A DNA stretch of 64,000 nucleotides from Antedon mediterranea (Eukaryota > Echinodermata > Crinoidea > Comatulida > Antedonidae). Shown in pieces: positions 4,934-63,766 of the stretch. Numbering within the stretch: position 1 is the first letter of the stretch; every line of letters starts with the position of its first letter. Position numbers and translations under genes: made by a program. The notes beneath the pieces were generated by a model. It saw only the letters and a program-made list of their open reading frames with translations. It did not search any database and was not told where the DNA came from. Location: contig NC_092672.1 of NCBI RefSeq assembly GCF_964355755.1, positions 14,194,501-14,258,500 of the forward strand, read 5' to 3'.

Positions 4934-8804
<3,871 letters not shown>

Positions 8805-8891
8805 ATTCTTTGCAATGCTTCTTTGATTTGTTAACACATAAACTATAACCTAATAATGTTATTCATTCATACCACAATACTGGTATTTGTA

Positions 8892-8897
8892 AATAAA
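8892..8897 (+). terminator. Candidate poly(A) signal of the C1orf50-like gene
   Basis: AATAAA lies 88 bases downstream of the stop codon, at a usual distance for a 3' UTR signal. No transcript evidence. Confidence 0.45.
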
Positions 8898-9010
8898 ATA
8901 TTAATAATGATGATAAATGATTTTATAATATAATATCTAAAGACTGTATTTACAGTACACATGAATATTAGTATTGAAAATAAAATAAATGACATAAGCA
9001 GGCTATAGAT

Positions 9011-9420
9011 TAAAGGCTTATTTACACTAGGACGATAACGATCGACGATAAATAGATAAGCATGCATTTTTCTTATATAAAACAAACTAATTTAGAAAGT
9101 TTTTCGTTCTAGAATTATAGAATACTCATTTATTCTGTCTTTGATAAAATAATATTTTGTGTAAAATCCAATCAAATGACGTCATGATCAATAAACAAAA
9201 AATATCGTTGTATTGGCACGATATTATTGCTCTTACTAATCATGACGTCATTTGATTGGACGTCTGAAAATATCATTTTCATCAAAGGAAGCATAGATTA
9301 GATGGTTCCTAAATAGTCATAGAATAAAAACTTTTTAGATTTCTTTTGTTTTATGTATGAGCAATGCATATTTGTTTATTTATCGTCGATCGTTATCGTC
9401 CTAGTGTAAATGGGCCTTTA
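9011..9420. mobile_element. 410-bp foldback MITE
   Basis: The left end (TAAAGGCTTATTTACACTAG followed by GACGATAACGATCGACGATA) is the reverse complement of the right end (TATCGTCGATCGTTATCGTC, CTAGTGTAAATGGGCCTTTA), with two mismatches in the first 50 or so bases. Complementarity resumes inside (CCAATCAAATGACGTCATGA against TCATGACGTCATTTGATTGG), so nearly the whole element can fold on itself. No coding potential. Superfamily not assigned. Confidence 0.85.
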
Positions 9421-10841
9421 CACACCATAAGTAAATCTGTAGCGAATGCGCAAGTAATTTTGTTTGTTGTTCAAGTTTACATTATTCCTTTAATAATATA
9501 ATGCGAGATATTTGGCTGAAGTTATGTTAGGTTGCCATTTGCTGTTCAGATCAACTTGATTGGCCCAATAATTAAGTTGATCTGAATATAATTTTATTAA
9601 TTTAATTTCCATTGTTAGTGTGTGTTATTAATTAAAACATGTACATGTGGGTCAGATATAATATTTTAATAAATTAAACAAATTTTGTTTTAAAATGCTT
9701 TGTACCGTATGATTATTTTTAAATTGTAGTCATTTCTCTGCAACAAACAAGAAAATTATAATGTTTGGTAACAAACTAAATGTTAGTGTAGGACACCCAC
9801 AAAAAATTTAGGTGAATTGACCTTTTCAATATTTCCATTTGATAACATCTGACATAAACAAACTTTCTCTTCAAACACTTTTTACCTGGTTCTCTAGACA
9901 CTAACCGTCACTAACATTAATAATTTTTAAAACTAGAACTAGTTACAAATGATTCCTAAAGCTAAACAGTGGTTATTACTGAGTTACAAATGATTCCTAA
10001 AGCTTGGTTCTTAATAGGACAACGCAAGTTTAACGCAAGTAATTTAACCAACTGATTATTCAAACTGTTGATTGTCATTGGCTGTGTTCGGAGGTAAAAT
10101 CAGTTACATGTGTAATTAGTGATCATTTGGACGATGAACAATTTACATGTGTAAACTAACAAAAAAATACTCAGCAGGGTCATATTTCATGCATCTCTTT
10201 ACACTATAAATCTTGCGGTTAATCAGCTTGCGGTTTAAGGTGTAATTGAAAAATCCACCTCATGAGGTGGATTTTTGAAACAGCTAGTTTATCTCAAAAT
10301 TTACACCACACGCAACCATTACAGTTTACACATGTAAATTTGTTCCGTCCGAACAGGCTCATTGGTCAACTCGCTTGTTTTGTACTTACTTCCTTGTGTT
10401 GAATCCAAGTGAAACCAAGCTTTTAGGAAAATCGTTTAGGAAATGATTTAAACAATAGAAAAATGTAGATGATTCAACCATGAACATTGTACTGCAAGTT
10501 ATTATGACAAAATAAATTGATAATGAGTAAGAAATTACAGGGTATTAGTATAAAAAGAAACGGTTAAAATCTAAGTCATTTCAAAACTTTAATGAAACGT
10601 GTGATATTGTAAATACAGAATCAAATGAATTGCAATGTGACCACATAGTGTACTATTTCTTGTGTTCATTTTTAGTAGATTAACTTCCTTGTTTATCATC
10701 TTGTTATGATGACTGCAGTTTCTTGAATGACTAGTAAAAATAAAAATCAGTAAATAAGCAGTTTTAAAACATCTACTGAAATTGATCATTTAAATTGGAG
10801 AAAGGTAAATTTGTATTTTTATTTACCTGTTTAACCGTTAC
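9421..10841. other. Non-coding interval
   Basis: AT-rich sequence between convergent genes. It has a near-perfect direct repeat of about 24 bases (GTTACAAATGATTCCTAAAG at about 9941 and 9983) and a short palindrome AAAAATCCACCTCATGAGGTGGATTTTT near 10249-10276 (described here by its arms AAAAATCCACCTC/GAGGTGGATTTTT). No convincing gene. Confidence 0.4.
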
Positions 10842-11953: not shown

Positions 11954-14900
11954 TTACTGATCAGTTTGGATACAACAGCAACAGCAGGCCAATATTTTTA
12001 TCTGCCTCCACATTCGTCGTAAAAGACCAGGTCTCGTGGGGGTATTAGTGTTTGTGCCTGTACTGGCTGGAGATGCATCAACATCAGCTTGCCCTGAGTA
12101 AGTATCATCTGCAAATGTGACTCTACGATTATCACTGGACTGCCTTGAATAAAGAACAGTCACTCCACTGAAGCAATTGATTTTGAGTTTCTTGTGTTTT
12201 GAAATCTGATAAAGAATTTTAGTTTATGTAAAAGAATAAAAACATGACTTTACAATGAAATGTTGTGGGTTTGAGTGTGAAAATGAAGCACATTACATTG
12301 TGTAATATTTGACGGCCTACCTTTAAGATTGACTTAAGAGGTTTGACTTCTTTGCGGCATTCTTGCAGTTCAATCTCGTGCCACTCCTGATCATCCTCTA
12401 CAACCTCTGGTAAATTTAAATCCAGCTTTTTAATAGGCCTAGTCGTTGCCACTGATGGGATGCAGTATTTACTTGCTGTAATTTTGATTGAAACATTTTT
12501 ATTTCAGTAAATGTAAAATAAAAATATTTATATATAATAAATATTATTGTAGGCCTACGGTAGTTCAAGTAGGAAACAATGTAAAAAAAATATTAAAAGT
12601 ATTTTAATTATTAATTAAAAGTAGTATTAGATACGTCAATCATTTTTTATTGAATACTAAAAATATCCAGTTAATATTGTTGTGGTCATTCGAAAATGAA
12701 ATAGTAATTATAGCACTTTAAATTCCAACAAACCGTGTATTGTTCTGATTAAATTATCGACTTCTTCATCGCCTATTTCGATTGGATCAGTGCTATGGCC
12801 TGGTAGTACAGGTACGTTGTTTTGTACCTAAACAGAAGCAGAAATAGCTTGCATCATATATATATAGACACCAATACCAACAGCCTTTGACACTAAAACT
12901 GCTAAACAATCATGGTCTTTCAATTTAAAAAAGGTAATGAGAATAACGAAGCCTATATTACTATATAATTATTATTAATGTATCTTTAATAATTAAAGGC
13001 CTAACGTTAGTACAATCCTGTTCTCATATCATTCTTAAAGAATAAGTAAAAAGAGAATATTACAAGAACCTAGAGTGTATTTCTATGATGATAATATTAG
13101 ATGGATGAGTGAGCACTGTTCGCCCTGTGTATCAGTATCATAGAGGATGTCAAACTGTTCGCCCTGTGTATCAGTATCATAGAGGATGTCAAACTTACAT
13201 TTGTGTCTTCTGTTTCAGTGGTGGAGCTAATTGTTAAGACGGGCCATTCATCAGAATTATCATCACTTGTTTTTCCTTCAATACCAACAATCCATTCGCT
13301 ACTGCTGATCTCATCTAAATTCAATGTTATAAATCAATCAATCAAACTACAATTGACTATAATGCTTACAAGTTAAAGTATTTGCATTTACCTATCATCA
13401 TGTGTCTATGATGATAAGTTAACATTGTACACATTTATAATAACGATGGAAAGTGATTTTCAAGAACCGCTTTAATTAATAACTCACCTATTGTGCAATG
13501 ACTTTCATCACTTCTATCAGCACCTTCATCACTGCTATTACCACTTACACTACTGTTTGTGTGGTGACTATTGAGGATGTTGCAGGTGAAGCTGCTACTG
13601 CTAACAGCTCCTGTTGGAAATGTCATCTCAATGTTGGTATCACATTCTCCTTGCAATGGCTGGCTAGATGAGCAAACCAATGATGGCCAGGAGCCCTCAT
13701 CTGTTGACTGCCAATCGGAACAACTGTTCGATGGAAGTACATGAATGACCGTTTCTATGCTGTCAGAAGAAGACACCTCTGTGTTAGAGGTAGATTCACC
13801 GGACTCGGCTTGATTGCCATTCGACAAATTAACCTTCATATTAACAGGTGGAATTGTTGCAGCTTGACCATTGTCATCAGAAGCAGGTGGTTCTTGATTT
13901 TCAGATTGCACCTGTGCTGACACAGGTTCTTCATGGGCTTCATTCAGCTGTTCACTTAGTGCATCTGTGACTGTCGTTTCTTCTGGCTTTGGTGTAGCAG
14001 CAATGGGAGAAGATTTAGACAACCACTTTACTGAAGTGCTTGGAGGACTGCCGTTTTCATTCTGCCACTCACGAGAATCTTTAAATTAAACGTTTGCAAA
14101 GAAATGTTCACGTAATTAATTAATAATTATTTAAATAATAATATTTCCATTATTTATTATTATTTCCGAGTTCATCATTCTAAACCTAAGGAAAGACCTT
14201 CCCCTAAACCTTGCACATTATTAGGCCCAAGGAACGTAGGCATAGTGAATGATACAAAGCTCGCTCGGTACTGGTTCCACTCATCATGTTATTCTATCAA
14301 TATCACGTTCTCTACGTGCCCCTGATTATTAAATTAATTTATAATATGATATGATATCTCTAATTTAAATGTTGTATTTATTTTAGTAGATGTTTTTCTT
14401 TACGTCTTTTATATCTCTGACACATGTTAGACATGATAACTTACCTTCACTTTCAGTATCACTGCTGCTGCTACCACTGCTGCCACTTGGGATATTAATG
14501 CTCTTGCTTTCACCTCCCCTTGCAAATACCATGTGAATGCTGGTATTCCTTGGCACTCGCTTAAGAGATGACTGCGTAGGTGTTTCAGACCAAAATGATG
14601 GCCAGGAGTCATAATCAGTCTGCCAGTCACAATAATTTGATGGAACTACATGATCGACGGTTTCTATGTTTTCAGAAGAACCCTCTGTGTTAACGACGGT
14701 TGGTTCAGATTGTAAACTTTGTACATGGATAAGTTCTAGATTTTCATTAAGAGCAGATGCAGCAAATTCCTCGTCATGTGCTGTGGTTGCAGTTGAAAGA
14801 TGTTGATTAGTAGGTAAAAAAACTTCCACATCAGAAGGTGAATATTGTGCATTCTCTACAGATGATGTCACTGTTGCAGCTTGAGCATACTGAGCAACTT

Positions 14901-16057
14901 GTGTCGCAGTTGCAGGTTGGGCATTCTCGTCAACTTGTGTCACAGTTGCAGCTTGGGGAACAGACACGGCAACTGGTATCGCAGTTGCAGGTTGGGCATT
15001 CTCGGATACTGGTGTAACTGTTGCAGCTTGGGCATCCTCGACAACTGGTGTCGTAGTTGTAGATTGGGCATTCTCAGAAACCAGTGTCACTGTTGCAGCC
15101 TGGGCATCCTCGGCAACTGGTGTCGCAGTTGCAGATTGGGGAACAGAATCGTTTGTTGCTGCTGCTGCCTGGTTTGCAAATACATATGCTAATCCTTCTT
15201 CATAAGCATCACTCTGGGCTTCACTTGATCCACTAGTGATCGTCTTCGATTGTTCAGCCGCTGCTGTCTGGGATACGGGTTCAACTGGTTCGGGTGAACC
15301 ATTCACAACAACAGGGTTGTCATTTAGAGGAACATTGGACGAGTTTAGCACTGTTGAATTAATCAGATGACGGTTTTCATTCTGCCATCGAGAGACTACG
15401 GGTAATTAAAAACAATAATAAAGTTAATAGTTATGGAATTTTAAAAAGGTACTTAAGCGAATTCTTTCTCAAGTTGGGTAAAAAAAGTTATCAAAACCAT
15501 GTAATTAAAATGATTCATTTATTGTGAAGGTAATATCAGCTATGAAAAGACAATTGGGAGAAGTCAACATTATTTTAAAGATGTATAGTTTCTTTTTTTT
15601 TTAAATAAAAGTAAACACAATTCCAATAAGCAAGCTAAATCACAAAACCTTATCTTTTTATTTAAATAAATAACAATTAAGATCAGCATTTAAAAGTAAC
15701 ACATCCAAAATAATGCCAACTTTAAGTCAATGGCTACCAGATGTCTATGCGAGACGGTTATTTGAACCAGTACCAGTATCTCTGTTACACAGGAACATCG
15801 CGAATAAGGTGACCATGCGTGAGAGACTGGATTTGAAGCTGGATGTTTAATAGTGGTTTGGTGGAGTGGGAGAGAAGATGCATGTGCGCGTTGTTGTGAC
15901 GACTCTCGACCACCGGTCCTGTCCCGGTGATTTTTTACGGAAAAGAACTTCAATAAATCCTTTTCTTTTCTTTCTCAATATTATTACAGTATTACACTAA
16001 ATTTCCATTTTATGTTATATAATGTAGGCCCATGTTCTTACCTCGACGATGTGACAT
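11954..16057 (-). CDS. Unknown SLiM-rich protein with PP1-docking-like SILK and RVTF motifs
   Basis: Seven exons join in frame on the minus strand: 16042-16057 (ATG, MSHRR), 14445-15395, 13488-14078, 13199-13314, 12734-12827, 12321-12475 and 11954-12205 (or from 12190, losing five residues). All internal borders are AG/GT with matching phases, giving about 724 residues. The protein is mostly Ser/Thr/Ala/Gln-rich and probably disordered. Visible elements: a 12-residue repeat (VSENAQ-type) in exon 2; homologous exons 2 and 3, each opening with WQNEN and ending in a DWQ...SWPS block; acidic W-x-x-[LI] sites (SWPSL, DEWPVL at 543-546, EWHEI at 621-624); SILK at 638-641; RRVTFADD with RVTF at 669-672; CCCCC at 715-719 near the C-terminus. 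SILK followed by RVxF is the known bipartite docking signature of protein phosphatase 1 partners, so a phosphatase-targeting role is inferred, not shown. The exon 5 donor (ACG|GTTTGT) is weak; reading through it would stop at 12708 and give a shorter form without the PP1 motifs. I do not recognise the family. Confidence 0.7.
13115..13192. repeat. 39-bp exact tandem duplication beside a splice donor
   Basis: The 39-bp unit beginning ACTGTTCGCCCTGTGTATCA is present twice back to back. On the minus strand it begins six bases inside the intron after exon 13199-13314, immediately after the donor GTAAGT, so the donor itself is intact. Confidence 0.9.
14880..15140 (-). repeat. 36-bp coding repeat (12-residue units) in exon 2 of the unknown gene
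   Basis: Alternating units of the types VAEDAQAATVTL and VSENAQSTTTTP follow one another about seven times with a 36-bp period, degenerating toward the C-terminal side. Codon-phase conservation (whole 12-residue units, no frameshift) indicates selection for an open frame. Low-complexity Ala/Thr/Gln composition suggests a flexible linker. Confidence 0.75.
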
Positions 16058-17822
16058 TTTTTCTTAGGATATAGTAAAAATATATAGAAAAAATCTCGAA
16101 TATTTGAGACACAATATTAAGAACCAACGCTTAGTTGAAAAACTAAAAATGATATGTTTGCGCGTGAATCTGTTGCACAGAAACAATCCATCTGTTACAT
16201 AGTAACATCGCGCATAAGATGACGCGTGGTGCGTTTTATAAATACACTGAGGGCGTATGATGCGCACAGACGGCAGAGCCATAATATTATTATATTTATA
16301 TAATGGCTCTGACAGACGGCATGCAGGGCCATAATATAAAGTCATAACTCTTATATCTGGCTCTGACGGACGAGCCACGATTTTCTACATTGTGGACAGC
16401 AGTGCAATATTGAAAATACAGTCGATTCTGAAACTTCTTGTGGATAATGTATCAGAATTTGATACCGTCCGCGGTAGCTTTTAGAATTAATTAACAAAAA
16501 TGTCAACAGCTCTCCAAAGTATTATGGAATTGTATATCCAGGGAGTTTAACAACTCTCTGTAGTATATCCACACTTGTTGATTGTTTAATGTTGGTTTCT
16601 TTCTGTTTACCTGTAAATTGAATAAATAAAAAAGATAATAAAATGAATGAATCTGCAGCACTAATTCAGCCCTTCCATCGCACAGAATCCAAGGTTTGCT
16701 GCTGCAATTCGGGTAAGGTTTAAAATATTCTCCCTCCTGTTTGTGTGATTGGAAGCCTCAGCGTGAATTTGGTCTTTACAGAAGTTTACGGATCTCGCCA
16801 GTTCCAGAATGAATTATTTAAATTAATAAGGATTATTCAACTAATTTTGACTAGTATCTTAATTTGGATGTAGGCCTATTTAATGAATTTTAAAATACTT
16901 TTTTTCAGCCAATACCTGCCGTTAATGTATGTGTTTTGAATATGTAAGCCTATAGGCCTACCTTATTATGAAAATACTACTACCTGAACTTATGACCAAT
17001 TACTTATCCTGAAAGAATTTCCCCTCTGGGACAGTGTCCAGCCTCCAAAGTCTGTTGATAGAGTCACGGCTAACTCCTTTTAGGCTACATTATCCATTAT
17101 CATTACTGCCCGGCGGGATGTACAAAATTCCCCCATCAGCAGCTTCAGATTCATAAGATTGCCATTTTACAAACTAGGCCTATACTGAGCTGTTTATTGG
17201 AGCCACTAGACAGAACTTTTCGCATTGATTCATTAATGGGATAAATAACACCATTTATGACATTTGTGTCTATTACGGAACCAGAAATTCCCATCACGTC
17301 TCTAAGATATAAGTATTTGAAGAAAAAAAAACCATCTTCTATTTTAATCAAATCTAACTTCTGACCAAGTGAATCTGATATTATCTTTAAGCTCAGATTT
17401 TGTATAAAGTTTAATAATGTTACTAATTAATGAAAATCGTTCGATCCATTTGCCTCATTACATAACCACTTATAGAAATTGACGTGCAGCTATAACATGG
17501 TTTGTCATTATAAACATCGTTACTTATAAAGAGGAATTTATTTGGTTTCGTATTCAATAGATCACAATTTAATTAATGCAATTCACTGAAGAAAGTTGAA
17601 CGAGTAAGCATTGGTTTCCTCCTATAGGCCTTAGCGAACATTTTTCTACATGATGAGGAATACCAACGGGTCGGACATCAAGAAAGCCAAAAGACAAGCA
17701 ATTGAATAATTTGGATTTGTTTTGTTAACATACTGTACATTCTTTGCTAACTGAGTCTCTACGTATTTGTCGTTATATAGTTTGTATACAAACAAAAATT
17801 TATGTTGGTGAGAACCCCATGT

Positions 17823-33903: not shown

Positions 33904-34840
33904 TTGGCCCTGAGACGATTTGGCACACTTAAATTTATCGGCTTTGATATGCATTTTATAAGCATAAAATAAGCTTTTTTCCCCAAACTTTATTTTCAGA
34001 GAGACTATGGGGTAGTACTACTAAGGATAAAGATGCAATCAAGCAAACATTTTGAAAACATTGTCGAAAATGATCATTTTTTAGTCACGCGAACGAGTTA
34101 CGCCCTATGTTGGCCGCTTGGCGAATGCATGAAATAAACAAGGTTTTCGAAGTAAAAAATTGAATATAAAATTTTGTTTTTTTAGTAATTTATTATATTA
34201 TATCAAAATTGTCAATATCAATAAAATAAAAAAATAAAGCATCTTTAAAAACTTGATAAATACCCAATTTAAAAATGAATATGAATTTGGTCTAAAGTGA
34301 GACGTTTCGGCCCACAAAGTGGGATGTTTCGGCCCAATAGTGGGCCGAATCGTCCCACCAATAATAATAATAATGATTTAGGTATTTGTATAGCGCCAGA
34401 ATCAACTAAACCGAAGTAAAAATCAAAGGCGCTTATATTGGATGTTAAAAAGATGCGTTTTAAGTTCTTTGTTAAAAATAGCAATAAAAGTTGAATGAGT
34501 AAAATGACGAGAGAAGGAGCAGAGAACATAAAAGACCTTTGTCCATAAGATTTGATAAGTAGTAGGTTTTGATCAGCCGAACGAAGACAAGCAATAGGGG
34601 TGTAGGTGGGAAGAAGATCAAGGAGATAATAATAGATAATAGGAGATATGTGTGAGGATCTTCTAGTAAGAGTTAGAATGCGTGCAGCAGTGCTCTGGAG
34701 ACGTTGAAGTCGATTCATTGAAGATTTCGGTAGGACAAAAAAAAGAGAGTTGCAATAATCAAGGCGAGAAGTGGCAGAGGCATTTATTAATGTAGAGGCA
34801 GTACACAAAAGTGGGCCGAATTGTCCTGGAACCAACAGCC
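33904..34840. mobile_element. GGGCCGAATCGTC-family element split by a LINE
   Basis: Left end TTTTGGCCCTGAGACGATTT, then a centre matching 8215-8400 in reverse orientation (for example AATGATCATTTTTTAGTCAC). The right side is GTGGGCCGAATCGTCCCACC at about 34341-34360, and another GTGGGCCGAATTGTCCTGG at about 34811-34829. A LINE fragment lies between these last two, so the end was interrupted by an insertion. Confidence 0.75.
34367..34805 (-). mobile_element. L2/jockey-like LINE 3' fragment
   Basis: On the minus strand a frame reads ATSRLDYCNSLFFVLPKSSM and NRLQRLQSTAARILTLTRRS, the well-known C-terminal block of jockey/CR1/L2-type reverse transcriptases. Later codons are eroded. It ends on the plus strand at AATAATAATAATGATTT with GTATAGCGCC, the characteristic (ATT)n tail of L2-like elements, which fixes the orientation. 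Confidence 0.85.
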
Positions 34841-35030
34841 CCTCTATCATACCGCCATGTTAGAGACTTCCTTCCTAAGCTATTACTAGGCAGTATTGTA
34901 GGTGGCTTATAACTAGGCATAGTTGTATTAAGTGCTTTAATCATAGTGTAATTTGGTTTTCTGCACAATGAGTTAAGATTCTAAATAATATACAATATTT
35001 AAAGAGTTTGATTTATATATTATTATCAGG

Positions 35031-38000
35031 ATGAATGGTGCCACAAATCATAATGGAAGTGAAGGGTCTGCACAAGTGCAAGAAGAAACTAAGAAAACTG
35101 CAACTTCAAACACTTCAGAAAAAATAGTAATTCTGGACGCTGGAGCACAGTATGGAAAGGTAAAGTAGGATGATGGTGAACAATGTATGAATACAAAATT
35201 ACTAAAAAATTCTTGGCTTTTGACAGATTTAACATAACAGTGTAAACTGTGGAAACCTAAAGAAAGCCTCCAAGTGGGTTGGAGGAGGTTTTCATAGGGG
35301 TTAAGGGGATTGGAGCAAGGCTTTTACAGTTATGAAATAACTGATAAAGTACCCACAATATTTGAATAATGTAAGTGAAAATATTAATTAGGAGCACAGT
35401 ATGAGAAATGGTATGTAATTAATCTCAATGCTAAGTGAAATAGTAATTGTGACTTCTGGAGCACAGTATGAAATGGTATTTAATCTCAATGCTAAGTGAA
35501 ATAGTAATTGTGACTTCTGGAGCACAGTATGAAATAATATGTAATCTCAATGGTAAAGTGAAATAGCAATTGTCTTTTTTTTTGTACAGCATTGTATTAC
35601 ATTTTTTTTCAGGTGATTGATAGAAAGGTTCGTGAGCTTTGCGTAGATACGGATATAATGCCATTGGAGACACCAGCGTTCATCATTAAGGAAAAAGGCT
35701 ACAAGTAAGTTTAAACAACGCTTACTTTTGAATGTAACACAAAGAGGTGATGCCACTAGATTAGTTACCATTGATTGCAGTTTTTATTGTATATGAGACA
35801 ACAGATATTTCAGAAGTATTTAATTGCAGCTAGAATATTATTTTCACAATGTATTTTGCTCATCAACCTGAATACCCCAAGAAAAAAGGCCTGAATACCC
35901 CAAGAAAAAAAGGCCTGAATACCCCAAGAAAAAAAGGCCTGAATACCCCAAGAAAAAAAGGCCTGAATACCCCAAGAAAAAGGCCTGAATACCCCAAGAA
36001 AAAAAGGCCTGAATACCCCAAGAAAAAGGCCTGAATACCCCAAGAAAAAGGCCTGAATACCCCAAGAAAAAGGCCTGAATACCCCAAGAAAAAAAGGCCT
36101 GAATACCCCCAAGAAAAAGGCCTGAATACCCCAAGAAAAAAAGGCCTGAATACCCCAAGAAAAAGGCCTGAATACCCCAAGAAAAAGGCCTGAATACCCC
36201 AAGAAAAAAAGGCCTGAATACCCCAAGAAAAAGGCCTGAATACCCCAAGAAAAAGGCCTGAATACCCCAAGAAAAAAAGGCCTGAATACCCCAAGAAAAA
36301 GGCCTGAATACCCCAAGAAAAAGGCCTGAATACCCCAAGAAAAAGGCCTGAATACCCCAAGAAAAAAAGGCCTGAATACCCCAAGAAAAAGGCCTGAATA
36401 CCCCAAGAAAAAAAGGCCTGAATACCCCAAGAAAAAGGCCTGAATACCCCAAGAAAAAAAGGCCTGAATACCCCAAGAAAAAGGCCTGAATACCCCAAGA
36501 AAAAAAGGCCTGAATACCCCAAGAAAAAAAGGCCTGAATACCCCAAGAAAAAGGCCTGAATACCCCAAGAAAAAAAGGCCTGAATACCCCAAGAAAAAAA
36601 GGCCTGAATACCCCAAGAAAAAAAGGCCTGAATACCCCAAGAAAAAGGCCTGAATACCCCAAGAAAAAAAGGCCTGAATACCCCAAGAAAAAAAGGCCTG
36701 AATACCCCAAGAAAAAAAGGCCTGAATACCCCAAGAAAAAAAGGCCTGAATACCCCAAGAAAAAAAGGCCTGAATACCCCAAGAAAAAAAGGCCTGAATA
36801 CCCCAAGAAAAAAAGGCCTGAATACCCCAAGAAAAAAAGGCCTGAATACCCCAAGAAAAAAAGGCCTGAATACCCCAAGAAAAAAAGGCCTGAATACCCC
36901 AAGAAAAAAAGGCCTGAATACCCCAAGAAAAAAAGGCCTGAATACCCCAAGAAAAAAAGGCCTGAATACCCCAAGAAAAAAAGGCCTGAATACCCCAAGA
37001 AAAAAAGGCCTGAATACCCCAAGAAAAAAAGGCCTGAATACCCCAAGAAAAAAAGGCCTGAATACCCCAAGAAAAAAAGGCCTGAATACCCCAAGAAAAA
37101 AAGGCCTGAATACCCCAAGAAAAAAAGGCCTGAATACCCCAAGAAAAAAATAAAAGGCCTGAATACCCCCAAGAAAAAAATAAAAGGCCTGAATTACTTG
37201 GCCCACTGCTCAATTTCATGAAATAATACCTACTTTCTGTATACAGTTACTTAAAAAATCTGTACATTTTTTACGATGATTAAATTAGCTTGCTTTGCAA
37301 TAAATAAAGATGTGTATGCTAGCAATTTTTGCAAATAAAAATAAATTTTACTGTCAATTTTTCCTGCCAACCTCGACAAACTGAATGCCAGCATTTTGTG
37401 CTGACCTTATTTTTCCTGAAATTTACTGGGCTGAAAAATTATTAAATAAATTTATTTTAACTTTGCCTCTACAGTAAAAGTACAATATTGCTGGCATAAT
37501 TGGAAGAAGTATTTGATCATATGTTTTTTATTTAGTTTATTATTTAAAGATGTATTGTCCCTTGAAACGCAAAAAATGAAGGTCAAAATATTCTAAATTT
37601 AAATTGGCCATATCAAAGTAATATATTAAAGTTATTCACTTTAAGTCGAAAATTCAAGCCAAAAACAACAAGTTTACGTAATTAACAGGTAAATTAATTT
37701 GATTACATTTTGTCTGGAAAATCGTCGCGAGCGAAAGTAAATAAAGATTTGATGATGATGCTCATTAGGATTGTTTACAACTTGTCACAGTTAAGAAGGT
37801 GTTTTCACACAGATCGCGAGGAAGTTTTATAATTATGCATACAGAGTAGCCAAACAAGCGAGATTAGATACTGTATGTTTTGATTGAAAACTTTGACTGG
37901 AAGTCAGTTATTTTTACAAAAAAACGTCTGTATTTCAGTTAAATGATTTTTTTTTTACTCTTCTCTTTAAACTTGTATTACTTTGTAGAGCAATTATAAT

Positions 38001-44000: not shown

Positions 44001-47000
44001 ATTGAACAGCGTGTGGAAGCTGAACGTACATTTCTAGTATCACTCCATGTTTATCATATTTCATTTTTTTACAAACTTTTGCATTTTCTATTTCACCTTG
44101 AACATTGTTGTTGTATTATAGGCACTAGATGAAGAGCAAGTATTTGCAGTCCATATTGACAATGGCTTCATGAGAAAACAAGAAAGTTCAAATGTGTTGG
44201 AGTCACTTGAAAAGATTGGTCTTAAGGTCAAAGGTTATTAGCTATTTATAATTTTTTAAATTTTATTTTCTCAGAAGTTTCTCGGGTTCCCTCTTGAACA
44301 TCACACAGCTGGTTAAATTTGTACAAAATTTGCATTTTAAAAATCCAATTTGTTTATGTAATATACAGTTTGATGTTTGACCTTGGTCCTGTTTAAAAAA
44401 AAAAATGTTTTTAAAATTATTTTTATATGGTCAGTGATTTCTTGAAAATATTTTATTGTAGTTGTGAATGCAGCAATGACGTTTTACAATGCCACTACCA
44501 CGATAGCAGTTAATAAAACCAATAAATCAGCAAGGAGAACCACAAGCTCACTAAATACCACATACGAACCAGAAGAAAAAAGAAAAATAATTGGCGATAC
44601 GTTCATGAGTACAGCTGAAGAGATTTGTAATGAATTAAATTTAAAGCCAGAAGATACATTATTAGCACAAGGTAACTAATTTCATAATACAAGTATTATA
44701 AAATATATAGTAGTATAGTATACTACTATATAGTAGTATAGTATAGTATTTGTTTTACAAATAAGAAAATAGTTATTTTTGTCTTCAAATAGCCATTTCT
44801 TTTTGTTGATTTTCACACTGAATATAACACATGAGGGAATTTCAGTTTTTTCCACTGTCATCGGGGTGGATCCAAATAATGCAAGGAATGTGATGCGTAA
44901 ATCAACCAATCAAATGTCCAGGATACACAGTCTGTTACAATAGATAGAATCAAAGTAGAATACAAAAATTTATACAGTAGAAAATGACAAAAATGTAGTA
45001 AAAAGTGATAAGTAAACAACAATAAAGTGTTTATAGGACTGATTGATTGCAAACATCGTAATAGAACGGCTGGAAAATGTCATATAATGAATTGTATTTT
45101 GTAGGTACTCTTAGACCAGACTTGATAGAAAGTGCGTCATCGTTAGCCAGTGGTTGTGCCGATGCTATCAAAACTCATCACAATGACACAGATTTAGTCA
45201 GACATCTAAGAAATGAAGGAAAGGTTGTTGAACCATTAAAAGAATTTCATAAAGATGAAGTTCGTGTTCTTGGAAGAGAACTTGGTTTACCAACAGAACT
45301 CGTTCAAAGGCATCCGTTTCCAGGTTAGTAATAGGTTGTGTTTGCTCAAAATATATTCAATTTTCCAATTATCACCAAACTCAAATTTGCTTAGTCTTTT
45401 ATAGTGAAACATTAAAAAGTATTATTAGGTTACTAGGAAAGACACCTGCGTTTTTAGAAGTGTATTATAAAATGTGATGCCTCCTTGATAATATTTTATA
45501 ATAAATGAACATGCAATGTCTGTAATTACATAATATTGATATGTCATACTGTAGTGAAAAATCTTAACAAATGATTAACTGAAAAAACAGCCGGTAATTC
45601 ACTATATCATCGTCACTATAAAAGTGATCCTAACCCTAACCATAACATCGGCATGGGTTCGAGGTAGTAGAACAAGTCTTCTCGGGAAAGACTATAAACC
45701 GCATGTCCGGTGTGCACATCTGGCTTATGTGCACTTTAAAGAAGCTACTACATCTTTCAAGATGATCAGGAGGTTACCCTGGAGTACTAGTATACACACT
45801 GCCATTGCCACCCTCAATGCTAAAAAAACTTGTGAATTAATTGTGAGTTGTAAGAAAAACAAGTCGATATTTAATCCTCTAATTATTAATAAATGTAGTG
45901 TTAACCAGGTTTGCCGTACTAAGCTCCTTGGAATTATTATATGTGACAATTTATCATGGCAACCCCATATTGATTCTTTGATAGCTAAATCAAACTCACG
46001 GTTATATTTCCTTAAACAATTGCGCCGGTCAGGTCTAGACGCCCAAGCCTTATGCTATTTCTATTGTTGTGTTATCAGACCTGTACTAGAATACGCCGTC
46101 CCCGTTTGGGGAACGTGCTTAACTAAATTGCAGTCTGACCAACTGGAAAGTATCCAACGAAGGGCGCTTAGAATCACGTTCCCAGAGCTCAGTTACAACA
46201 AAGCAATGGCTCAATGTAATGTGCCTGTGCTATGTGAACGTCGAATTAGACTGTGCAAGGATTACTATCAGAAACTTAAAAACCCTTCCCATAGACTACA
46301 TCACCTTCTTCCAAAAGCGCCTAAATCTAGATACAATTTAAGACAAGTTAAAGAATTTTGCATTCCAAAAATAAAAACGGAACGATCAAAAAATTTTATT
46401 GTAAACTTTGGTCTCTTTCACAAGTGGTAACCGTAAGCATACATATATATCCCTGCACAGTCGCTTCGTTCCCTGACTTGACTTCAGTTTGTCTGTTGTT
46501 CGATGTTTTTGTGTTATTTGATTTATATCGTTGATTGATTTGATATATTTTTTCATTTAAGTATAAGTATATATTTTTGTATAATTCAACCCAAAAGTTG
46601 CAATAAAAGTATTTTTATCAGTTTATCATTGTCACACACAGCCAATCATCATAACTGGGCTTCTGTGAGACCAGTCTTTGACTGAAGAGGTCACCCAGTA
46701 TAATGAAATAATAAATAAGATATTCACATTATAATGAATTACTAAAGTGTGAATGGAATAACGTATGCTATCTATAGAATGAATTATCTGTATGTATATT
46801 CATTTCATGACAACAACAAATTACCTTATTTTAATAAACTGAAATATTGTGATAGTAATATCTTTTTACACAATATTATGCTTTAGGACCAGGACTTGCA
46901 ATTCGTATATTATGCGCAGATGAACCTTATATGTGTAAAGATTTTGCTGAAACTAGTGTTATACTCAAGATTATAGCTGATTATTCCAACACTATGCAAA

Positions 47001-58211: not shown

Positions 58212-61200
58212 TTAATCCCAAGGACCCCAAACATCTTGGTGATATGCTGGATTAGCTCGCTCATCAAAATCTGGCCAGTAAGCTGGAACAGATGTATTAT
58301 AATAGTAGCCAAGTCTCTCTATCAATTGACTGACAACATCAGGATGAGATTGTGACACATCATAGTATTCATACGGGTCTGCTGTGATGTTGAACAGCCA
58401 AACTTGTTGGTTCGGGATGAGTAGAGGCTTAAATGCCTCTATACCAGAGTCTGGTACAGGAATCCATTCTCCATTGTTGGCCCCTGTAAACACAGAGATT
58501 ACATAATTTATGTTGAAAAAATTGTTTAGGTGATTATGGGGCAAGAGAAGTCTACAAAAGTAGCTATTAGGCAGCCAGGCAGTCTAATCTAATAGTTTGA
58601 TATTACATCGGTCAACGGTCAAGTTGTCTGAGCATTTCCAACAATGCTCTGGTAATCAACGCATTATTGCATCCCTTTATGAATGCATCTTATTTCTGCA
58701 TGCTTAAAAACATGAAAAATGAAGATTAATTAAATCAGACTTTGAATAGGTTATTTTGTAGTTTTGATAAAGTGAATCACTTCCGTAGAAAAAAAAACAG
58801 AAAAAATTATGTTTTCACTTATAAAATAACATGATAAATGGTTAAATTCAACCAAAAATCCATTGGCTGGCAGCCAATTTGACCATTTTTTGCTTTAAAT
58901 TCCATTTTTTTTCAGGTAAATTAATTTTTTTTCGATCAATTTTTGGTCGAAGTCAATAACTATTATGTGACATTAAAATGGCATATTCAACAAAAAAAAT
59001 TATTTTTCAGGGGGACAATACATCTTTAATGTGACAGAAGTAATTCATGCAAATTAGTGATAAAAGAAGTCATATCAGCAATGTATGCTCCCAGTGACTA
59101 ATTGGACAAAGGTCTTCAATCGCCAATTACATATTATTTCATTACGTCATTGTTTCACACTTGTTAGATTAGGATCATTATAGATTGTGAAGGCCACTCT
59201 TTACATTGATATAGATGTGAAGTAGATGCTAGAATAGATGATGCTGCTTTACAAACAATCAATTGCTAATTTGTTCTTTAAAAAAAATGTTATAAAGAAA
59301 AAAATTCCCAGTAGGTCTGTCAATTAACGTTACATAAATGGTTACTAATTAAAACGGTTGTTTGTCAATAAAGGTCAGTGGCGGATGTAGGGGAACGAAT
59401 ATGATGGCGAGCCACCCCGCTTAATTCTCCAAATGAAAAAAAAAATTATGCAACCAACTCTTTTAATTAAGAAGAGTAGGCCCAGAGCTAGGGTTAGCAT
59501 TATAGTTGTGTAGGTCTACATAGTGAATACTATTTATGAATTCAAGAGTTTAAAAAGAAAACATGATTTAAAATCTTCGGATAATACCCACAACTGAGTT
59601 ATTTTCCAAACACACACACCATCATCACATATTTCTAGCTTGCTCCTTGTTTGAATGCTGACGTCATCACTCTCCAAAAATACACCATTTTCCATTTCAG
59701 TTAATTACCGCCCTGGTCTGTGTGTGCACATACTAGAGTGGTCATCTTATTTACACCCCTGTATAGCGTAGAGTGTATAATATTGTGAACTTATTTCTCA
59801 CGTATGAAGGTTTTTTTCATAATAAGGGTATGCAGTATATTAAAATGATAAACGAGATGAATGGTGTTTTTTTTTATAATTTTATAGGTATAAAATAAAT
59901 ATGAAATGTCTTGTATGTACAAGGCCGAAAATGTGCGGCGAATTTGGCGCTTCATTGATTTTGTGTTATAGACACGACGATTACTGCAAGCATTGTATAC
60001 TAAATTTAATAAAGAGTTATTCACCAGGCTGTAGGGTGTATATCTGAGTTTAACAGATAAGACCACCACACAGTACACACACGGGCACTATATCGATGCA
60101 TTTCAAAGTACCGCGTGATCAAATTATCATTTCGTATAAAGTGTTTTTTTATCAAAGTTTATTATTAGTTCGTCAAAAAAGATCTGTGTAAGCATCTATT
60201 TTTCACAAAAAACGATCGGTAGGGGGACACCATCACCAAACCCACAGTGCACCTTATATGCCATTTTCATTCATGGCCACCCCGCCTCGTCAGATCCTAG
60301 ATCCGCCACTGAAGGTTACATAAATGGCTACCAATTAAAATGATTGTTTGTCAATAAAGGTTACATAAATGGTTACCAATTAAAACGGTTGTTTGTCAAT
60401 AAAGGTTACATAAATGGTTACCAATTAACACAGTTTGTCAATATAGGTTTACATGAATGGTTACCAAAAAAAGGCTGTTTGTTCAATAAAAACTGTAATA
60501 AACTAGCAAAAAAAGCAATAAATGGAAGCATGGTTAGAAATATGCTACAACTGTACTATCAACTAACAATTGGGCCACTTTGCTAAAAGTCACTGGTATT
60601 ATTGCACATGTAATCGATTATTTCACACAATTCATTGTTTTTCCATGCAGGAATCCTGTGGACTACCTAAATATAGTTAACAATACCTAACACTACACGA
60701 CACTAGAGTCTAAGAACACACAAACACTATGAAACAACCCCGAGATGGCCCAAAGAGTCCAAATTTCACAATACATTTAATTAAAACAGAAAAGAATATT
60801 AGAAAACATGATAAGTTTCTAGGTGTCTGGTCTTAAAGGTGCACTTATGTCAACATGGAACTCAACGCAACTTAACAGAAAGAAACTAGTTGGGTAAGAG
60901 AGCTTATGTCGACTTTTCGAGCAACTGATGGAGCTGAATTGAACCAGTGAGTGAGAAATTTTGTCGATACAAACTAATTGTAACTATTCATAGTTACTAT
61001 AACGCACACACGACACGATTTGTAGTTGTATAGGAGCAAGTATGCAGGAGCGCTTATGTAGAAATATCAAACTGATCACTACTGGTCGCAGTTACTGAAC
61101 GGAAAGGAACGGAAAGTCAACTAAGCTTTATATGACGACATTTTGTGTGCCCTTGTCAGTTCCAGTCAGTTGAGGTCAGTTGCTCAGAGTGCTTATGTCA

Positions 61201-63766
61201 ACACATTTGAATTAAGTTGTCATAAGCGCACCTTTAGGAAAGCAGTTGACTATACTCCATACCTGGATGACCGGTAAGCAGTTTCCAATCTCCAACTCTT
61301 ATTGCAGCTGTCATGTTCACATTAAACACACTTTTGTCTTTTTCTTCAAATGCATCAATGTTATGCAACAGCTCTTTGCGTGGTGATGGTTTATTTTCAC
61401 TGAAAAAATGTAAGAATGTTAACCAACTGTAGAACAAGCATTATGTAATTAAGGTTTTATCTAGAGTGTTATCTTATCATTAGGATATGTTTAGGCTAAA
61501 ACACCTAATGTTTACAATGGAACCTTCTGCACATTTCAACAAACAGCAACAAAAAAAACAATCTCTCAGCAAAGGCAATTTTGAACAAATGTGAAAACTT
61601 AGGCCTATGCTAATGGCTTTGTACAGTAATTAAACAGAGACTTTTCAATTTCAGTGAACATGCACAAATTAAATTTTTGTGGTGTTATAACATCATATGT
61701 CCACTTTTACTCAGTCAGAGAGCAAATTGCAAAATGCAGATGAACAAGTTCTCAAGTCTGCACATATCATAAAATGAATTCATAAAAGTTGACATAGTGG
61801 ACTTGGGTGCAAATCTTTTTTTGTGTTTAAATGCAGATCTCATAAACCGAAAAAGCAAGTAAACATAGTTTATCTTCATTGTTAAAAAATATGCCTATCT
61901 TGCACTTTAAAGCTGGCAGTACAGATTACAGTACTTAATCTTACAGTTCATAGATAGTAAATATGAAAGCACATGAAACCTAATACTTTATGTATTTCTT
62001 GCACATTTTTTAGCAGCATTCTATTTCCTAATATTAATCAACATTGAAAGCAACATTTAAACTACATATTGGTGTTCTCAACAACACAATTATATTCAAT
62101 TGTAAATACAGTGTTAACTCTTCAATTAAAGGTTTTAGCATAATAGTAGTATTACTGATTCCCATTGTTTAAAAATATTCAGTACATTAAATTTAAATGT
62201 TACAGTTTAACCTTTTAGATTAATGATTTCCTAGCGTGGGTGTTCTTAGAAGTAACTAACTACTATAAAAATAAGTACACTTTGTCACTTGTAAGTTATT
62301 TAACTGAATTAAAAGTATAAGCTATACCTTATAGTTGGCCAAACATTAAAACCATCCAGGGTTAAGTCGCTAATGTTTCCATTGGCAATACCTTGTACAA
62401 GAGTAGGAAACCAATCACTGATGTGCATCAACTCTTTGGTAATCGTGCCTTGTACGTTGAGTGGTAGAAGAGGACTAGAAGTAAAGCCAACAGCTTTCAT
62501 TCCACCTTCCCAATACGATGCCTTCCAACCACGTAGAGGCCAATTATTTCCTCCTTGAAGAACCTGTCCGCCATTGTCTTATAAAGAAACAAAAAATTTA
62601 TTTTCTTTTTCATGATTTTTCAAAAAAGAACTATTGGCAACTGACTATTGTAACTCACTGAGACACATTGTATGTATGATGGTTAGGGTCTTGTTTCCAG
62701 CACCACTGTTTACCAACATACCAAACCTTTTTAGGATTGTTTTAAATAATTACAATCCGAATATGATGACACTTCTTGATATTAATTGTGTTGTATTTTT
62801 TAATACCTAGGAGAAAGTTGTTTGATTATACATGTTACCATTATCATTACACACACAAATAAATTCCTCCCCTGAAAAAACTCCTAAAAATTGTCTGAAC
62901 AATAAACACCTTGCGCGTTTATTCAAATGAATACAGTAAATATAATTACCAGTTGAAAATATGAGTATTGTGTTATTCCACACAAGATTATCCTTTAACG
63001 ATTGCACTATCTTGCCTACAGCATCGTCCATACATGTTGTCATGGCAGCATACAGTCTTCTATTCTTATTCTTTATGTGTGAATACATGTTTATATATTT
63101 ATCTGGTGCTTGTAAAGGAGAGTGGACTGATTGCAATGCAAGATATAAAAAAAAAGGCTGCAAGAAAACATCAATGTTAATCGCACAAAAAGATTCACTG
63201 TATTTATTTTCCACTATATGGAATCACAAGTTGAGATTAAAATCAATTCAATACTTCTTTATATTATCTCATAAATATGGTACAGTGATTGTTACACTTT
63301 ATAGAAACTTTAAATTTCTTTACATTTGATTCATGACATTAACAGTATCAAATATGTACTGTATGTCATATAAATGTTGACATGGAAAAGGTGAATGAAC
63401 TGTGAATGAATAAAATGCGATTTTAACAGATCGACATTGACTGGTTACATTATTTTAAAAAAAATGTATACAAAAGTTACAAAATATTGGTTATGTCAGT
63501 TTAAGTATTATTAAGTGTCAATATTAAATTATAATGAGGATCTAATTATCCAAGCATTTCATAAAAACAAACCTCATTTGTATTATGTTTTGTAATAATA
63601 TTCTGTACTTGTTCAGTAAATATGTACGTTGAATAATTGCCTGTGTACTCCCAGGCAGGTCGAAGGTCATCATGTAAGTCATAAGCATACCAATGTTTCA
63701 TAAAAGTACTTGGAAAACCACCATTTCGATAATGTGTCCAATAGTCTTCGCTACCAGTTAGGTAAC
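58212..63766 (-). CDS. Arylsulfatase B/I/J-type sulfatase, C-terminal exons
   Basis: Five minus-strand exons: 63573-63766, 62950-63157, 62328-62577, 61263-61399 and 58212-58483. They join in frame to 353 residues ending ...HQDVWGPWD. Sulfatases of this group remove sulfate from glycosaminoglycans in lysosomes or outside the cell. Visible family blocks: [26 protein letters not shown] (substrate/active-site His), TDNGG (metal-binding Asp-Asn), [14 protein letters not shown] (active-site Lys), [22 protein letters not shown] and [10 protein letters not shown]. The N-terminal half with the formylglycine-forming Cys motif lies beyond the right edge, so completeness cannot be judged. Order and spacing match human ARSB closely; ARSI and ARSJ are alternatives. 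Exon 63573 uses a GTTTGT donor. Confidence 0.93.
58860..59040 (-). repeat. Second copy of the TTAAAGATGTATTGTCCC repeat
   Basis: GGGGGACAATACATCTTTAA at the right end is the reverse complement of the start of 37545-37700; TTTTTGGTCGAAGTCAATAA is shared in altered form with 63945-63975 (TTCACTTTGACCAAAAATTG). Confidence 0.55.
59328..60475 (+). repeat. ~47-bp tandem array split by a transposon
   Basis: Units of GGTTACATAAATGGTTACCA, ATTAAAACGGTTGTTTGTC, AATAAA occur once left of the element at 59376-60311 and about four times to its right (60312-60475), with increasing divergence toward the right. Confidence 0.85.
59376..60311. mobile_element. hAT-like non-autonomous element (CAGTGGCGGAT termini)
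   Basis: Starts CAGTGGCGGATGTAGGGG and ends CCTAGATCCGCCACTG, an inverted pair of the kind known for hAT-type elements. AAGGT flanks both ends (59371-59375 and 60312-60316), shorter than the 8 bp typical of hAT. Inserted inside one unit of the tandem array. No transposase frame. Confidence 0.8.
60834..61236. mobile_element. 403-bp MITE in the last sulfatase intron
   Basis: Left terminus TAAAGGTGCACTTATGTCAA and right terminus TGTCATAAGCGCACCTTTA form inverted repeats. CTTATGTCAAC or CTTATGTCGAC recurs internally (about 60845, 60903, 61191), giving sub-terminal repeats. It ends 26 bases from the donor of exon 61263-61399. No coding frame. Confidence 0.8.
62806..62931 (+). repeat. Interspersed repeat, copy 2
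   Basis: CCTAGGAGAAAGTTG, TGATTATACATGTTACCA, CTCCCC blocks and GCGTTTATTCAAAT follow the order of copy 1 at 4103-4216. Lies next to the donor side of sulfatase exon 62950-63157. Confidence 0.6.

Follow-up and report, generated by a model that had tools for sequence, protein, structure and literature searches.

A gene of seven exons lies on the minus strand of the window, the whole 64,000-nucleotide stretch of the Antedon mediterranea genome analyzed here (C3:14194501-14258500). Its predicted product is a Ser/Thr-rich protein of 724 residues without a domain match. The last two exons encode both a SILK...RVTF motif pair, the type used by partners of protein phosphatase 1 (PP1) for docking, and a candidate membrane anchor that ends the protein. 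The uncharacterized gene may encode an unrecognized PP1-targeting subunit. A second, damaged-looking copy of parts of the gene, the locus L003, provides the only comparison within the genome. Coordinates of the features are collected in Table 1.

Gene structure and family membership

Rebuilding the minus-strand model from the sequence gave one frame of 724 residues plus the stop, exactly reproducing the seven exons, AG/GT borders, matching phases and ~724 residues of the initial annotation. All six introns are GT-AG and the phases at the exon starts (0, 1, 1, 1, 0, 1, 0) are all compatible; by eye, the intron 5 donor (ACG/GTTTGT) looks the weakest of the splice sites. The gene is probably real because of four features: i) the GC content is 44.2% in the exons and 29.3% in the introns; ii) the 12-residue repeat of exon 2 stays in frame; iii) exons 2 and 3 are duplicates in the same phase; and iv) a paralogue, L003, exists. 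Given the base composition of each exon, a stop-free reading would be expected with a probability of 3.5e-8 in exon 2 and 1.1e-5 in exon 3. The gene is presumably transcribed.

Exons 2 and 3 are 77% identical as DNA across 108 bp (E 1.3e-15) and 37% identical as protein; the protein alignment scores 147, against a mean of 58 and a maximum of 88 in 300 shuffles. A phase 1-1 exon can be duplicated without breaking the frame, and both exons are of this type. Each holds one double-Trp module, CDWQTDYDSWPSF and SDWQSTDEGSWPSL, and the two exons begin VSRWQNEN and DSREWQNEN, to be compared with ETRMWNN in the exon-2-like exon of L003. LC3-interacting motifs were considered at the Trp modules (DEWPVL, QEWHEI) and set aside as a misfit, by eye, to the strict form of the consensus. 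A perfect 39-bp tandem repeat of 2.1 copies (window 13115-13195) begins just inside the intron 4 donor and is probably a very recent duplication.

By charge-hydropathy the protein falls just on the disordered side (0.437; boundary 0.445). In Pfam-A, PDB and NCBIfam, the libraries searched, no family was recognized either, in agreement with the initial annotation. With the whole protein, Pfam-A returned nothing near cut-off, the only entry listed up to E 10 being GmrSD_C (13.6 bits; cut-off 23), in a search whose HMMER filters drop most weak matches. PDB gave only matches of E 1.4 and 3 to exons 6-7 and one of E 0.84 to the 59-residue docking segment, and NCBIfam, a prokaryotic library, had no match to exons 6-7. 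Nothing recognizable as this gene was among the matches listed in literature searches on RVxF with palmitoylation, RVxF with sea urchin, and lineage-specific or orphan genes.

Table 1. Features of the gene and its flanks in window coordinates (aa, amino acids)
Feature	Position	Strand	Remarks
Upstream element: TCATCTTATGCGC + two GTTNCTRYGYAAC sites	16223-16172	-	partly common to L003 promoter
Exon 1	16057-16042	-	16 nt, ATG, MSHRR/G, phase 1 out
Second, diverged copy of upstream element, in intron 1	15813-15781	-	88% over 33 bp
Exon 2	15395-14445	-	aa 6-323; rich in Ser/Thr, array of 12-residue repeats, first of the double-Trp modules
36-bp (12-aa) tandem repeat in exon 2	15140-14845	-	in frame, 8.1 copies (AQ-A/P-AT-V/A-T...)
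Exon 3	14078-13488	-	aa 323-520; diverged copy of exon 2, in tandem with it
Exon 4	13314-13199	-	aa 520-558; third double-Trp stretch (SSEWIVG...DEWPVL), likeness to repeat by eye
Exon 5	12827-12734	-	aa 559-590; donor GTTTGT
Exon 6	12475-12321	-	aa 590-641; SILK at its end
SILK codons	12332-12321	-	aa 638-641, immediately before intron 6 donor
Exon 7	12205-11954	-	aa 642-724 + stop; holds RVTF and putative membrane-anchor tail
RVTF codons	12124-12113	-	aa 669-672, in NRRVTFADD
Basic amphipathic stretch GLLRRMWRQIKILA	12028-11987	-	aa 701-714
Five-Cys cluster, putative S-acylation site	11986-11972	-	aa 715-719; kept in L003
AATAAA polyadenylation signal	11866-11861	-	start 88 nt past last base of stop codon
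Decayed duplicate of exon 7 end	11423-11369	-	77% over 56 bp, E 3e-4

The paralogue L003 and the conserved tail

The gene and the motif pair of the initial annotation stand; what it overlooked are the conserved basic and Cys-rich tail, the paralogue, and the exon 2/3 duplication with its Trp modules. When the exon 6-7 protein was searched against the genome (354 Mb, 18 contigs), it found its own gene twice and C3:13062853-13063038 (E 0.0067, 34% identity), which is L003, 1.1 Mb from the window gene. Three further protein queries, with matches accepted up to E 10, found no relatives besides these two; such searches score only the best candidates. Within 1.4 kb, L003 contains a 16-nt first exon with an ATG and the same phase (MSNHQ/G compared with MSHRR/G; borders by eye), an exon-2-like exon of phase 1-1 (by eye) that is interrupted in frame by a TAA (L003:1198-1200), and a last exon that terminates in RTIWKQVKKLLSCCCCGCVQNDE where the window gene has RRMWRQIKILACCCCCIQTDQ. 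Compared as proteins, the last exons score 89 (300 shuffles: mean 23.9, maximum 40), with 22 invariant columns among the 87 of the alignment. Their homology rests on this comparison, since as DNA the 3' ends align weakly (score 59, 1 of 300 shuffles as high). The upstream region plus exon 1 scores 59 between the two loci, with a shuffle mean of 28.4 and none of 300 shuffles as high. About 147 nt separate the exon-2-like donor of L003 from its last exon, and exon 6 is not recognizable there. Judged by its sequence, L003 is possibly a pseudogene. Upstream of it lies a decayed fragment of its exon 2 (score 83, 0 of 200 shuffles as high). At L003 ~1643-2616 (C3:13062995-13063968), the 3' end including the Cys-tail codons is tandemly repeated ~530-570 bp downstream, with 73% identity over 465 bp.

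The tail of the window protein consists of a basic amphipathic stretch and a Cys cluster, and this arrangement is kept in L003; the C-terminal 24 residues are of the RRMWRQIKILACCCCC type. GLLRRMWRQIK (701-711) has a hydrophobic moment of 0.85, the highest in the protein. Between the two genes, nonsynonymous (dN) and synonymous (dS) divergence are 0.33 and 1.81 over the last 24 codons, a dN/dS of ~0.18 that is only rough, given the shortness of the tail and a dS close to saturation. Over the 58 codons of the last exon the values are 0.62 and 1.32. On this rough measure the tail appears to be under constraint and, by comparison with L003, is the best-supported functional element of the protein. 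A basic amphipathic stretch beside a Cys cluster is a usual form of S-acylated membrane anchor, and the tail would be such an anchor. AlphaFold2, run on exon 7 by itself, placed strands and no helix at the putative amphipathic stretch, but its confidence is too low for this to weigh either way (predicted local distance difference test, pLDDT, 51.5).

The regions upstream of the two genes are also partly alike. Genome-wide, the window gene and L003 are the only loci with an exact match to the composite TCATCTTAYGCGCRNNGTT. With up to two mismatches there are 64 matches, which include one further place at each locus, in intron 1 of the window gene and in L003, and otherwise differ little in number from the 53 of the reversed control. 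The near-palindromic GTTNCTRYGYAAC occurs three times in the window (15784, 16172, 16194), all within 423 bp at the gene start, against a chance mean of 0.03; only site 16172 is independent since the pattern was derived from three of the four sites, which lie at 15784-15796 and 16172-16206 in the window and, singly, at 213-225 in L003. All four are one base off RYYNYY-N1-3-RRNRAC (by eye). Genome-wide the GTTNCTRYGYAAC pattern is not enriched (258 matches, 330 for the reversed control), and an RFX/X-box (cilia) reading of the promoter is a weak lead.

Elsewhere in the window, a 24-bp minisatellite of ~56 copies (35867-37180) is open in several frames (FFSWGIQA or FLGYSGLF) and is thus a source of spurious long open reading frames (ORFs). 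A sulfatase exon (PF00884, 53 bits) lies on the minus strand at 62810-63223, and a sulfatase C-terminal-like ORF, so judged by eye and with no Pfam match up to E 0.01, at 58215-58583 on the same strand. Tails resembling the reverse transcriptase of long interspersed nuclear elements (LINEs) were seen by eye at 5837-6346 and 34272-34859, with no Pfam match up to E 0.01, and at 45579-46427, with a marginal ALKBH8_N match (22.1 bits; cut-off 21). L005 holds short interspersed repeats at 9214-9395 and 7239-9638 (GCGACCGATTTCAAA, 16-bp step; GTTGGGCCCGATCGTC), some also present as inverted copies with arms ~1.6-1.8 kb apart.

The SILK/RVTF pair and known PP1 partners

SILK at 638-641 and RVTF at 669-672, their order and the 27-residue gap between them, as first annotated, were all reproduced. 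RRVTF (668-672) is the sole match in the protein to the RVxF pattern [RK]x0-1[VI]{P}[FW], and it occurs together with a match to the SILK pattern [GS]IL[RK] at 638-641. In 100,000 shuffles of the protein, [GS]IL[RK] arose in 1.5% and RVxF in 23%; the loose pair, 8-80 apart, arose in 0.038% (3.8e-4) and the strict SILK...[RK]V[ST]F in 0.001% (1 of 100,000). Shuffling exons 6-7 alone gave 6.5e-4 for the loose and 1e-5 for the strict pair. The motif pair is significant, not overwhelming. Because RVxF-like matches are common, the surprise is carried mainly by SILK and the exact RRVTFAD form.

PP1 specificity comes from regulatory proteins. In one of these, KNL1, SILK comes before RVSF. Inhibitor-2 (PPP1R2) has KGILK preceding KSQKW (PMC3735429). 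In Inhibitor-3 (PPP1R11), a SILK-like motif (27-31) is followed by KVEW (40-43) and CCC (60-62), the last lying over the PP1 active site and being needed for tight binding and inhibition (PMC10066265). The SILK and RVSF of KNL1 are both within residues 24-70 (47 residues) and are phospho-inhibitable by Aurora B (PMC6715587). Animal RIF1 has RVxF and then SILK near its C-terminus, plus HEAT repeats (PMC3410773), and TIMAP/MYPT3, which set a precedent for lipid anchoring of a PP1 subunit, have a C-terminal lipid anchor, attached by prenylation (PMC3560227). The likeness to bipartite partners drawn by the initial annotation holds for the order in Inhibitor-2 and KNL1, and Inhibitor-3 shares it; the PP1 binding it suggested is possible, to judge from the motifs.

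Membership in these families was considered and rejected in each case. Inhibitor-2 resembles the window protein in having a SILK-type and then an RVxF-type motif, and differs by its IPP-2 domain and HYNE; the window protein has no IPP-2 (PF04979) match and no HYNE by eye, and a separate Inhibitor-2 exon lies on C7 (IPP-2, 74.3 bits). KNL1 shares both motif types, but they are N-terminal there and C-terminal here; no MELT was seen by eye in the 724 residues and no RWD match was found in Pfam. The genome search for Knl1_RWD_C was silent, as were its controls, and is uninformative. RIF1 shares the C-terminal SILK and RVxF, but its order in animals is reversed and it comes with HEAT repeats; the window protein has no Rif1_N (PF12231) match, and a Rif1_N exon lies on C1 (48.7 bits). 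TIMAP/MYPT3 (PPP1R16B/A) share a PP1-binding motif and a C-terminal lipid anchor; in contrast, the window protein has a Cys cluster and then ends in QTDQ rather than in a CaaX box, and has no ankyrin match. Inhibitor-3 is taken up below, with the explanation it suggests.

A candidate PP1-targeting protein and its alternatives

The reading that we favor, tentatively and at a little short of an even chance, is a divergent, fast-evolving, mostly disordered, membrane-tethered PP1-targeting protein. A disordered adaptor would be held on the membrane by its C-terminal basic amphipathic stretch and S-acylated Cys cluster. SILK and RVTF would dock the PP1 catalytic subunit in bipartite fashion, as in Inhibitor-2 and KNL1, which would place the phosphatase at the membrane. 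The long arm, rich in Ser/Thr and carrying the duplicated Trp modules, would either bind a substrate or be one. Phosphorylation of T671 by an Aurora-type kinase (Arg at p-2 in RRVTF), or alternatively by PKA, could switch the docking off. Aurora B recognizes the Arg at p-2, phosphorylates RV[S/T]F and so releases PP1 (PMC8786283), and in sea star oocytes RVxF phosphorylation is reported to vary by stage (PMC8370769). PP1 binding through the pair is plausible; we infer acylation, PP1 binding, the phospho-switch and the substrate role from the sequence. A bolder form of the proposal is a lineage-restricted PP1 holoenzyme, in which a family without known relatives combines SILK/RVxF docking with an S-acylated anchor, an RRVTF phospho-switch and Trp modules that capture the substrate. 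Taken as a whole, that is unlikely.

The main rival accepts a real, fast-evolving, disordered, membrane-anchored protein and takes SILK and RVTF as coincidental. Such a protein would act through its Trp modules and tail, perhaps as a scaffold or as a ligand on the membrane, with no link to PP1. This rival is doubtful, yet a serious contender, and several observations weigh for it and against PP1 targeting. At 3.8e-4, the loose pair would be expected several times by chance in a proteome of ~20,000 proteins (an assumed number). The shuffle test was done after the motif had been noticed and is post hoc, as many other motifs could have been noticed. Once a SILK is present, an RVxF will often follow it by chance. 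Open six-frame stretches of 30 residues or more from the window, L004, L005 and L013, 70,658 residues in all, held 10 SILK-like and 172 RVxF-like matches, true ones included; the sole in-range pair among them combined the gene's own SILK with an accidental RVxF-like string reading into intron 6. In L003 the residues aligned to RVTF are IVIF (R to I, T to I; V and F kept), so the position is not kept as an RVxF, and a search of two L003 exons turned up neither a SILK nor an RVxF match. Since L003 keeps the tail without the motifs, it is the tail and not the docking pair that has demonstrated constraint. The exon 2/3 arm, with dN 0.65 and dS 0.93 between the two exons over 163 codons, shows weak constraint at most. 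On the other side stand the textbook forms of the motifs (SILK, RRVTFAD), their right order, the basic sequence without a known domain around them, and the appearance of the strict form in only one of the 100,000 shuffles. Given the premature stop in L003, the loss of the motifs there says little in either direction; the docking pair may have been gained in the window gene, or lost in L003, while the anchor persisted. Conservation of SILK and RVTF, whose absence in related species the initial annotation named as a refutation, was looked at in L003 only, with a negative or ambiguous outcome.

Whether L003 retains a trace of the SILK exon was considered, and the idea was set aside. The candidate, ACA ATC CTC AAG with a GT directly after it, stops 20 nt short of the last exon and is out of frame with the tail, and this TILK region matches exon 6 DNA at chance level (210 of 500 shuffles as high). 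With both strands counted, the 64-kb window has a single match to the codon pattern [ST]ILK+GT, in which T was allowed after TILK had been seen; it is presumably the gene itself. Exon 7 up to RVTF is also weakly matched in L003 DNA (47 of 500 shuffles as high).

The Cys cluster could instead block the PP1 active site rather than carry lipids, making the protein an Inhibitor-3-like PP1 inhibitor. The order SILK (638), RVTF (669), basic stretch (701-711) and C715-719 copies that of Inhibitor-3 (PMC10066265). The spacing from RVxF to Cys is 16 residues there, however, and 42 here; L003 keeps the Cys cluster without an RVxF, which an active-site blocker leaves unexplained, although L003 may be a pseudogene; and the genome has its own Inhibitor-3 gene on C4 (43.9 bits to PPI_Ypi1; KVNW and GCCIYEKP occur in ORFs there), whereas the window protein has no PPI_Ypi1 (PF07491) match, for which membership in that family was rejected. 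We regard this explanation as highly improbable. It is likewise very unlikely that the model is misassembled, with exons drawn from two genes or exons 6-7 unjoined to 2-5 in the mRNA. The weak donor of intron 5, the decayed duplicate of the last-exon end nearby, and the short distance in L003 from the exon-2-like donor to the last exon, with exon 6 unrecognizable, would fit such an error, but all phases agree and L003 repeats the tiny ATG exon, the phase 1-1 exon and a homologous last exon in close succession. That the window gene is itself a pseudogene or non-coding remnant is scarcely credible: the in-frame TAA of L003 and the duplicated debris beside both loci point that way, but the window copy has no stop or frameshift in 724 codons.

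Should PP1 binding fail, the locus would be an orphan gene of the ordinary kind, whose Cys-rich tail is conserved. If the PP1-targeting reading is true, the gene would encode a membrane-tethered PP1 regulator that is recognizable by short motifs alone and absent from the family libraries searched. It would then also offer a test case for the way docking motifs appear and vanish in fast-evolving disordered proteins whose membrane anchor stays fixed.

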